A stretch of DNA of 64,000 nucleotides. Origin: Candidatus Chromulinivoraceae bacterium (GTDB lineage: Bacteria; Patescibacteriota; Saccharimonadia; Saccharimonadales; Saccharimonadaceae). This document shows positions 32,857 to 50,793 of the stretch, in pieces. Position 1 is the first letter of the stretch; each line of letters opens with the position of its first letter. A model generated the notes under the pieces. That model ran no database searches. It was given only the letters and a program-made list of their open reading frames with translations, and was not told the origin of the DNA. Both the position numbers and the translations under genes were made by a program. Location of the stretch: assembly GCA_035478595.1 (NCBI GenBank), contig DATIJL010000018.1, positions 1-64,000 on the forward strand, given 5' to 3'.

Positions 32857-32869
32857 AGCCTACCGACAA

Positions 32870-33049
32870 ATGTCGCTACGGATACCGAAATTGAACGTTT
32901 CACCCAATATCATTAATGAAATAGGTCGACACGTATCCTGTTCTATGCGAGAAGAAAGACAGAGTAAGGTAGACGCCTTTGCAGTAATGCTGAAGGCAGG
33001 AGAACGATCATTCGTAGGTCTGATACCATCGCGGGCACTGCCCAGATGA
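32870..33049 (+). CDS. Possible 59-aa leader ORF overlapping the LysM-CHAP start
   Basis: The frame runs from ATG 32870 to TGA 33047-33049. Its stop overlaps the hydrolase ATG by ATGA, the same coupling seen at four other junctions here. The product is basic and soluble (MSLRIPKLNVSPNIINEIG; QSKVDAFAVMLKAGERSF). There is no Shine-Dalgarno site before it and none before the hydrolase, so translation of the hydrolase may depend on this frame. It may also be chance reading through a regulatory leader. ATG 32945 is an alternative shorter start. Confidence 0.4.
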   Translation: MSLRIPKLNVSPNIINEIGRHVSCSMREERQSKVDAFAVMLKAGERSFVGLIPSRALPR

Positions 33050-49367: not shown

Positions 49368-50267
49368 ATGCAAAAGATTTTATTATATTATAAATTCACA
49401 CCGATCGAAGATCCGGAGGTTATGAAGCTATGGCAAAAAACACTCTGCGATAGTCTTAATCTTGGTGGGCGTATACTTATTTCTAAACACGGTATTAATG
49501 GTACTGTTGGCGGGGGCCTAGATGACCTTAAGAAATATATTAAGGCAACGAAGGACTTTCCAGGCTTTAAAGGGACTGTTTTTAAGTGGAGTGATGGTGG
49601 TCGTGAAGACTTTCCACGTATGAGCGTCAAAGTTAAAAAAGAGATTGTTGCATTTGATGCTGCCGATGAGCTGAAGGTTGATGAGAATGGTGTTGTTGGC
49701 GGCGGTACACACCTAAAACCGGGTGAAGTCAATAAGTTAGTCAAAGAGCGTGGAGACGATGTTGTATTTTTCGATGGTCGTAATGCCTATGAGGCAAAAA
49801 TCGGTAAATTCAAGAATGCCATCGTACCTGATACGCGAACAAGCCGAGATTTCATCAAAGAACTCGAAAGTGGCAAATACGATAATCTTAAAGATAAGCC
49901 AGTTGTCACCTACTGTACGGGTGGCATTCGCTGTGAAATCCTCTCGAGCCTTATGAAAAATCGTGGATTTAACGAGGTCTATCAGATAGACGGTGGTATT
50001 GTGAAGTATGGTGAAGCATATGGCGATGATGGTCTTTGGGAGGGCAGTTTGCATGTGTTCGATGATCGCATGAAGGTTGAATTTAGTGACCACACAGCTG
50101 TCGTTGGGCGCTGCGTTCACTGCGAAGGTCCTACTAATAATTATGAAAACTGTGCGTTTGCGAATTGTAACGATCTGGTTTTGATTTGTCTTGGTTGTAA
50201 GCAAAACCCAGATTTGCTATATCACACAGAGGATTGTCGTGAACAGGCGAAGTTGATATATTCTTGA
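49368..50267 (+). CDS. trhO: tRNA uridine(34) hydroxylase TrhO (rhodanese fold)
   Basis: A 299-residue protein of the YceA/TrhO family, which makes 5-hydroxyuridine at the wobble base of some tRNAs. An N-terminal acylphosphatase-like part ([26 protein letters not shown]) precedes the rhodanese domain with [18 protein letters not shown] and the active-site loop [10 protein letters not shown] Cys-rich C-terminus follows ([21 protein letters not shown]) and probably binds zinc. It is monocistronic. The stop codon overlaps the -35 element of the next promoter. Confidence 0.92.
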
Positions 50268-50292
50268 CGTCTTGTAAATAATTTATTAATAT
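50264..50292 (+). promoter_or_regulatory. Promoter of the GC-rich 88-aa gene
   Basis: TTGACG (50264-50269), a 17-base spacer, TAATAT (50287-50292). It is AT-rich and overlaps the trhO stop. A TTTGCAT/ATGCAAA hairpin lies just downstream in the leader (about 50305-50325). Confidence 0.6.
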
Positions 50293-50367
50293 AGTCGAAG
50301 CCTCTTTGCATGATGTATGCAAATGCTGTCAGGTATGTTGGAATAATTCGATCCAAGGAGGTCTCAC

Positions 50368-50634
50368 GTGAGTGAGGACCGGACGAAGAAGACGGCCGCC
50401 GAGGTGAACGACGGTGCTCCCGCGGGAACGCCCGAGTCCGAGGAGGTCATGACGGAGCTGCCGCCGGAGTTCCAGGAGGCGCTGCGCAAGGCGTTCAGTG
50501 ATGGACTGCCGAGCCGCCGCACCCGGATCATCGCCGGGACGGTCGCCGCGCTCAGCGCTGTCGGCGCGGTCGTGACCGTGGTGGCCAGCGGCAAGTTCGC
50601 CGTGAAGGCGGTTCGCCGCGTTCGCCGCCACTAG
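50368..50634 (+). CDS. GC-rich small protein with one membrane segment (88 aa)
   Basis: An 88-residue protein starting at GTG, with a perfect AAGGAGG seven bases upstream. The first 45 residues are acidic and hydrophilic (EVNDGAPAGTPESEEVMTEL). A hydrophobic helix lies at about 53-75 (IIAGTVAALSAVGAVVTVVAS), and the end is basic (RRVRRH). The likely topology is a cytoplasmic acidic domain with membrane helix, or the reverse. Codons are strongly G/C-ending, as in the GC-rich genes near 2-6 kb. It is followed by a GC hairpin, a hammerhead ribozyme and a terminator. I do not recognise the family. Confidence 0.75.
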   Translation: MSEDRTKKTAAEVNDGAPAGTPESEEVMTELPPEFQEALRKAFSDGLPSRRTRIIAGTVAALSAVGAVVTVVASGKFAVKAVRRVRRH

Positions 50635-50645
50635 TCGCGAACACT

Positions 50646-50685
50646 GAGGTGTTGCGGGTGGGCGCTAGCCTATCCGCAACACCTC
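50646..50685 (+). terminator. GC-rich hairpin after the 88-aa gene, no U-tract
   Basis: GAGGTGTTGCGG (50646-50657) pairs perfectly with CCGCAACACCTC (50674-50685). No T-run follows. It is the same style of hairpin as after the other GC-rich genes. Confidence 0.6.
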
Positions 50686-50709
50686 GGGCCGCACTTCAGC
50701 ATACCTAAT

Positions 50710-50760
50710 CTACTTCTATATTTATAAATATACTGACGAGTCCGGTAGGACGAAAAGTAG
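50710..50760 (+). ncRNA. Type III hammerhead ribozyme
   Basis: Every element of the hammerhead core is present in order. Stem III is CTACTT (50710-50715) with AAGTAG (50755-50760). The cleavage-site base C is 50716. Stem I is TATATT/AATATA (50717-50722 with 50727-50732) with loop TATA. The core CTGACGA is 50733-50739. Stem II is GTCC/GGAC (50740-50743 with 50748-50751) with loop GGTA. GAA is 50752-50754, with A 50755 pairing U 50715. Stem III is the open end, so the type is III. Self-cleavage would occur after 50716. It lies in the 3' part of the transcript of the 88-aa gene, just before a U-tailed terminator, so it would trim that RNA. Confidence 0.9.
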
Positions 50761-50765
50761 TACTA

Positions 50766-50793
50766 AAAAAGCCAGGCTAGTGCCTGGCTTTTT
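50766..50793. terminator. Bidirectional terminator after the hammerhead
   Basis: AAAAAGCCAGG (50766-50776) pairs with CCTGGCTTTTT (50783-50793). It serves the 88-aa/hammerhead transcript and the opposing MFS gene. Confidence 0.88.

Follow-up and report, generated by a model that had tools for sequence, protein, structure and literature searches.

A type III hammerhead ribozyme at the 3′ end of a small gene unit in a Saccharimonadaceae genome, and related units across the Patescibacteria

The stretch of 64,000 nucleotides from a Candidatus Chromulinivoraceae bacterium analysed here (the window; contig DATIJL010000018.1, positions 1 to 64,000) holds a small GC-rich gene followed by a hammerhead motif, which raises the question of what a ribozyme might do at the end of a single bacterial gene. 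Hammerheads were recognised in bacteria around 2010, and no function has yet been agreed for them (PMC3088659, PMC6155905). The intergenic ones flank small non-conserved ORFs, some of them in arrays and often near phage genes or prophages (Perreault 2011, PMC3088659; PMC6155905), and the role proposed for them is the cutting of polycistronic RNA into gene-length mRNAs (PMC3088659; PMC6155905). The locus consists of the following parts, given in window coordinates.

50264-50292 (+), putative sigma-70-type promoter TTGACG - 17 nt - TAATAT, assigned by sequence and by a spacing to the arm like that in relatives
50299-50327 (+), predicted 5′ hairpin TTTGCAT-gatgt-ATGCAAA plus AGC/GCT, found in the minimum-free-energy (MFE) and centroid folds
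50331-50342 (+), 5′ arm of the end-to-end helix, AGGUAUGUUGGA, which pairs with 50695-50706
50355-50361 (+), Shine-Dalgarno sequence AAGGAGG, assigned by sequence, within the closed loop and outside the arm
50368-50634 (+), 88-aa ORF with a GTG start, 71% GC, a hydrophobic stretch and a basic C-terminus
50644-50687 (+), GC-rich hairpin of 20 bp with a 4-nt loop, -40.9 kcal/mol, z -7.6
50695-50706 (+), partner 3′ arm of this helix, UUCAGCAUACCU, which stops 3 nt short of stem III
50710-50760 (+), type III hammerhead ribozyme, the right end of the unit, assigned by its core, three stems and covariance models
50766-50793 (no strand assigned), terminator hairpin that the flanking rhodanese (+) and MFS (-) genes have in common, ancestral and outside the unit

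By the computational tests available the motif at 50710-50760 is a hammerhead, and it is predicted to cleave itself. It reads CTACTT C^ TATATT-TATA-AATATA CTGACGA GTCC-GGTA-GGAC GAA AAGTAG on the + strand (in compact form CTACTT C TATATTTATAAATATA CTGACGA GTCCGGTAGGAC GAA AAGTAG). The stems are perfect (III, 6 bp; I, 6 bp with a UAUA loop; II, 4 bp with a GGUA loop), the invariant core C3UGANGA9 and G12AA14, the A15.1-U16.1 pair and an H at position 17 are all in place, and stems I, II and III are paired, with stem III open and with covariation among the relatives. A first-pass annotation, made from the letters of the sequence, had listed all the conserved nucleotides, the 6/6/4 stems and the tetraloops on stems I and II, and inspection of the sequence bears it out, as it does the placing of the cleavage base at C50716 (predicted cut after this base) and of the core G (G8) at 50738. 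The MFE fold is the hammerhead; its energy by itself is ordinary (z -0.55). Since the loops in the window, UAUA and GGUA, are unlike the UGUGUA and AAAA usual in relatives, docking of loop I with loop II, and hence fast cleavage, is uncertain for this ribozyme.

An Rfam search, which had been suggested as a check, gave a divided answer: RF00008 matched at the site with E 2e-7 and 40.7 bits, aligned over the full length of the model (1-54) in a 601-base search, and this score lies below the gathering score of 48.5, so that the hammerhead is absent at the gathering threshold. Most members of the family score below the cut-off as well, which was passed in only 3 of 295 family genomes. The motif thus shares with RF00008 the core CUGANGA/GAAA, U16.1-A15.1, H17 and three stems open at III, and differs in its score under the cut-off and in short loops that lack the usual loop I/II sequences. 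With a lineage covariance model trained on 37 family hammerheads, from which that of the window was excluded, 50711-50759 was the sole match in the 64-kb window (52.7 bits, E 1.1e-15) and the window hammerhead the only good match in the whole 1.14-Mb genome. Among the 37 training hammerheads 99.8% of cells were paired and both sides had changed in 13 of 15 pairs, with a covariation score of 0.846; shuffled controls gave 0.239 and slid controls 0.14 or less. That the motif resembles a hammerhead by chance, to which the score under the Rfam gathering cut-off might point, is made very improbable by this covariation, by the lineage-model match and by a scan of 3.84 Mb of random sequence with the dinucleotide composition of the window, in which no equally good motif occurred.

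The first-pass annotation had also called a hammerhead unusual in a Patescibacterium, and here the survey of relatives contradicts it. RF00008 matches (type III hammerheads, E up to 0.1) occur in 64 of 295 family genomes and 27 of 61 genera, with up to eight per genome, and across the phylum sample they occur in 30 of 380 genomes (E up to 0.001); therefore the case in the window is not unusual for the group. An exact-pattern scan of 84,980 GTDB species genomes found at least 116 stretches, and among the 80 GTDB loci listed about 60 carry a Patescibacteria or CPR name and 5 belong to other named groups. We found no relevant report of hammerheads in Patescibacteria, Saccharibacteria, Parcubacteria or the candidate phyla radiation, a weak negative given a coverage that fell short of subscription journals and bioRxiv, and the same coverage (few subscription journals, no bioRxiv) yielded no report of an end-to-end helix at bacterial hammerheads. 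Hammerheads beside small bacterial genes are already known, and their abundance in Patescibacteria and the end-to-end helix appear to be unreported in the literature covered. The units described here resemble the published bacterial clusters in being intergenic and beside small non-conserved ORFs, and differ in having their own promoter, a 5′ hairpin and often a helix abutting the ribozyme, and in that the matches concentrate in Patescibacteria (PMC3088659, PMC6155905). Elsewhere in the window, at 32858-33002 (+), lies the lysM-TM7 RNA (RF03005, 105.1 bits), a known cis-regulatory RNA of Saccharibacteria, which marks the genome as that of a Saccharibacterium-type Patescibacterium; the other hammerheads of the family likewise lie in Saccharibacteria.

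The ribozyme closes a unit of about 500 bp that runs from the promoter at 50264 through 50760. The putative promoter forms the left end of the inserted unit and overlaps the stop of the rhodanese gene, and from its sequence we infer that it is used, with a predicted transcription start at about 50299. The first-pass annotation was right to see a GC-rich, acquired-looking gene with a hammerhead at its 3′ end, and overlooked the 12-bp helix that would link the transcript ends, as well as the promoter and the hairpin near the 5′ end. The 88-aa product is probably a small single-pass membrane protein; it was found to belong to no Pfam or PHROG family and has no relatives in the phages, plasmids and viral contigs searched, so that the phage or plasmid origin once suggested for the cassette was not found. 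The 88-aa protein was considered and rejected as the common partner of the ribozyme: 198 family genomes contain no close relative (best match E 0.001, 46% over 61 aa), and the cargo differs from unit to unit. The GC-rich hairpin at 50644-50687 was considered as an intrinsic terminator and set aside, the U tract being absent.

Related genomes offer empty sites for comparison. In three other genera (G023, locus L128; G029, L129; G126, L132) the rhodanese gene faces the MFS gene across about 45-106 nt and the unit is absent. L128 and L129 have terminator hairpins in this short gap, and in the window the unit sits between the rhodanese stop and the ancestral terminator. The U-tailed terminator, which had been taken for a part of the gene unit, was accordingly rejected as a cassette component, since relatives without the unit have a terminator hairpin there too. 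At L142 a different small ORF fills the rhodanese-MFS slot, which may make this intergenic position a hotspot for insertion. Neither a recombinase nor a target repeat was identified for insertion of the unit. In one case a relative carries an 82% identical cargo gene that has a terminator-like hairpin in place of a hammerhead, as would be expected if either element could serve as the 3′ end.

The cargo of these units consists mostly of unrelated orphans (a scan of 87 proteins yielded ten Pfam families, most of them in a single member) in an RNA frame that is shared. It is richer in GC than the neighbouring ORFs in 152 of 171 units; among the units with a helix this holds for 42 of 43. The cargo at L085 (1244-1648, -) matches Tad4, a Type I Thoeris inhibitor, with E 6.5e-24, and a second Tad4 unit is among the 87 scanned; by this protein match, counter-defence genes travel in hammerhead units. 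The cargo at L117 (1406-2083) has a ThiF-family E1-like enzyme, and L050 (9434-9688) gives a weak match (E 0.008) to a SAMP2-like ubiquitin-fold protein, next to which lies an E1-like ORF of similar kind. Integron gene cassettes are also one-gene mobile units, sometimes arrayed, with unrelated cargo. They are likened to the present units by layout, and the latter differ in having their own promoter and a hammerhead at the end.

The predicted helix between 50331-50342 and 50695-50706 comprises 12 bp (10 Watson-Crick and 2 G-U; helix score 25). Five transcript ends were tried, and the helix is found in the MFE structure of each; its pair probabilities are 0.79-1.0 both before and after cleavage, and its probability by chance is about 0.001 with a permuted 3′ stretch and 0.0007 with random genomic 19-mers; the whole window mRNA folds better than shuffles (z -4.7). 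We define here a group, the closed-loop hammerhead units of Patescibacteria, by a 3′ arm that is complementary to the leader and lies 0-6 nt before stem III, and by a sigma-70 promoter that precedes the 5′ arm by 30-75 nt and is separated from it by a hairpin. In the window the 12-bp helix ends 3 nt before stem III, the promoter lies 38 nt upstream of the 5′ arm, and the hairpin at 50299-50327 stands between them.

How often this arrangement recurs was assessed in 210 nonredundant hammerhead units by searching the last 18 nt before the ribozyme against the region 150-1100 nt upstream. Contiguous helices were counted in place of RNAduplex energies for the whole leader against the tail, which were too noisy (median -27.6 kcal/mol for own tails against -24.8 for swapped ones). 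A helix score of at least 26 was reached by 43 of the 210 units, compared with 1 when tails were swapped, 5 when they were reversed, 2 with the downstream stretch and 8 with the region 60 nt further upstream, each for 210 units. At a score of 24 a helix was present in 31 of 77 family units (reversed controls, 2), in 6 of 21 from the phylum sample (2) and in 17 of 112 from the GTDB set (5), and viral contigs showed a weaker form, with complementarity in 9 of 45 against 2 in the control. An upstream ORF was not discriminating, being present in 195 of 210 units and on the opposite side in 162 of 210. Nearly all units with a helix have their 3′ arm at a distance of -1 to 6 nt from stem III, the 5′ arm follows a good -10 box at a median of 41 nt (33 well-scored promoters; 38 nt in the window), a hairpin of about 25-30 nt precedes the 5′ arm in most relatives, and the order promoter, hairpin, arm, ORF, arm, ribozyme is repeated in many units. 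The genes of these units are unrelated. Many units also have arms with no sequence relationship to one another, so common ancestry fails to explain the pairing. A strong end-to-end helix is absent from 46 of the 77 family units, and the L054/L320 family unit of the synteny study has no end-to-end helix; with more than half of the family units lacking a strong one, the ribozyme is usable without the helix, which is not a universal partner.

Some arms do recur. An arm family, TGACAAGCAGACA, is common to several genera, and the 13-mer TGTCTGCTTGTCA is present in five genomes in exactly two copies with no strays, one of them 1-5 nt before a hammerhead and the second inverted, 521-1035 bp upstream; a sixth genome, G139, has several pairs of the 13-mer and a few unpaired copies, and the TGTCTGCTTGTCA-hammerhead pattern was absent from the viral contigs searched. 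Many leaders with the TGACAAGCAGACA arm (for example L040, L226 and L277) have a second hairpin, cacaaggtgag ... ctcatcttgtg, after the 5′ arm, which resembles an attenuator or leader-peptide structure. Other conserved elements were seen near the ribozymes. A 20-nt motif, GATC(A/G)GATTTGCCTCTCGAG, lies 77-97 nt after the hammerhead start at L006, L009, L017, L026 and L034, downstream of five different hammerheads and at no other site in the fetched loci, and is possibly an insertion-site or regulatory sequence. A pseudoknot-like conserved stretch, acgggcaatt..ttcgcccgag..aagcgggatatcccgc, lies between ORF and hammerhead at L043 (11919), L056 and L109, with a similar one at L049, and the viral hammerhead arrays (L287, L297, L298, L303, L315 and L318) have recurrent AGTGTCTT / AAGACACT pairs near the hammerhead.

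On balance we lean towards the view that the locus is a portable one-gene expression unit, in which the ribozyme makes the 3′ end of the mRNA beside a helix that joins both ends. The unit at 50264-50760 would have been inserted between the rhodanese gene and the old terminator of the locus, and transcription would run from near 50299 through the ORF into the ribozyme, which would fold and cut after C50716 whichever terminator lies downstream. The trimmed mRNA would then end in a 2′,3′-cyclic phosphate some ten nucleotides past the 12-bp helix; in the cell this helix would tie the 3′ end to the leader, and the 5′ end would sit in its hairpin. The message would be a closed loop, with little free sequence at its two ends. 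A 5′ hairpin and a 3′ cyclic phosphate should hinder mRNA decay, and the purpose of the arrangement may be to provide an acquired gene with defined, decay-resistant mRNA ends that are independent of the landing site. RNA processing, which the first-pass annotation had offered as one role for the hammerhead, is thus judged the most likely one, with the actual cleavage inferred from sequence.

In a different account the hammerhead is real and cuts, but it only accompanies accessory genes, possibly of phage descent, and serves to process RNA between small genes, unconnected with any closed mRNA; the arms would be minor or of other use. This account is rather unlikely in our estimation and is the first that has to be weighed. 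The published association with small non-conserved ORFs, often near phage genes and with no known role, is consistent with it (PMC3088659, PMC6155905), as are the many units in which a strong helix is missing, the hammerhead arrays in viral contigs and phage-like cargo such as Tad4 in some units. What it leaves unaccounted for is that arms of many unrelated sequences are fixed 0-6 nt from stem III, far above controls, and that the distance from arm to promoter is similar across units.

The arms could also be DNA inverted repeats, for example recombinase sites that move the gene, rather than an RNA helix. The complementarity of most arms is perfect, the 13-mer TGACAAGCAGACA is kept across several genera, and the units seem mobile, all of which would suit such repeats. 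The empty sites, however, lack the promoter, the 5′ hairpin and the ribozyme, all of which are located beyond the arms, so the inserted piece does not end at the arms. Arm sequences also vary freely among units. Mismatches are informative as well, because a DNA inverted repeat would gather G-U and A-C alike. In helices seeded by Watson-Crick pairs, and thus found without allowing wobble, the 12 internal mismatches comprised 8 G-U on the ribozyme strand, no A-C and 4 others; other settings gave G-U to A-C counts of 3:0, 4:0, 4:1 and 6:2, all small numbers, and the count replaced a cruder wobble test that was uninformative (30 G-U against 45 A-C). This bias favours pairing of the arms as RNA, on the transcribed strand, and we regard the DNA-repeat explanation as improbable.

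Long-range pairing of 5′ and 3′ ends is a feature of the hok mRNA of type I toxin-antitoxin systems, and end pairing might likewise silence the full-length message here, with 3′ processing by the ribozyme opening or closing it. The 5′-3′ pairing is in the MFE structure of both cleaved and uncleaved window RNA, and in some relatives (GTAAGGAGAG in L038 and L042) the 5′ arm contains the Shine-Dalgarno sequence, for which such translation control is possible. In the window, where the arm at 50331-50342 excludes the Shine-Dalgarno sequence at 50355-50361, end pairing does not hide the ribosome-binding site, and since the 3′ arm stays on the mRNA after the cut, cleavage would not open the helix. 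Further differences from hok are the ribozyme-made 3′ end and the varying cargo of the units. Hok-like control is not obviously at work in the window, and we regard it as improbable. Retrozymes and viroid-like RNAs, which also have hammerhead-defined RNA ends (PMC4918200), form circular RNA; that the ribozyme here serves the same end is very improbable. A type III hammerhead with helix-held ends would suit ligation, and tandem hammerheads exist in some relatives and viral contigs. The window unit, in contrast to retrozymes, is protein-coding, with a promoter and a single ribozyme, the only hammerhead in the genome, with no tandem copies, and its own promoter leads one to expect a 5′ triphosphate, not the 5′-OH needed by RtcB-type ligation; for this unit circular RNA is unlikely.

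With the portable expression unit as the preferred reading of this locus, one may ask whether it extends to the lineage. More tentatively, the Patescibacteria may share a lineage-wide, cargo-independent module that seals an mRNA at both ends by a 5′ hairpin, a 5′-3′ helix and a cyclic-phosphate end, travels with foreign genes and gives long-lived or specially handled messages, possibly for the host cell. In this one large group of bacteria, which are reduced and parasitic, hammerheads are frequent and end single genes with their own promoters, and in a large minority of cases the adjoining sequence is complementary to the beginning of the same message. Ribozyme-made ends on closed-loop mRNAs are a concrete hypothesis that can be tested by mutation and compensation, and the units offer a means of recognising recently acquired genes in Patescibacteria. 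If true, such a module would give many bacterial hammerheads the function that they have lacked since their discovery.
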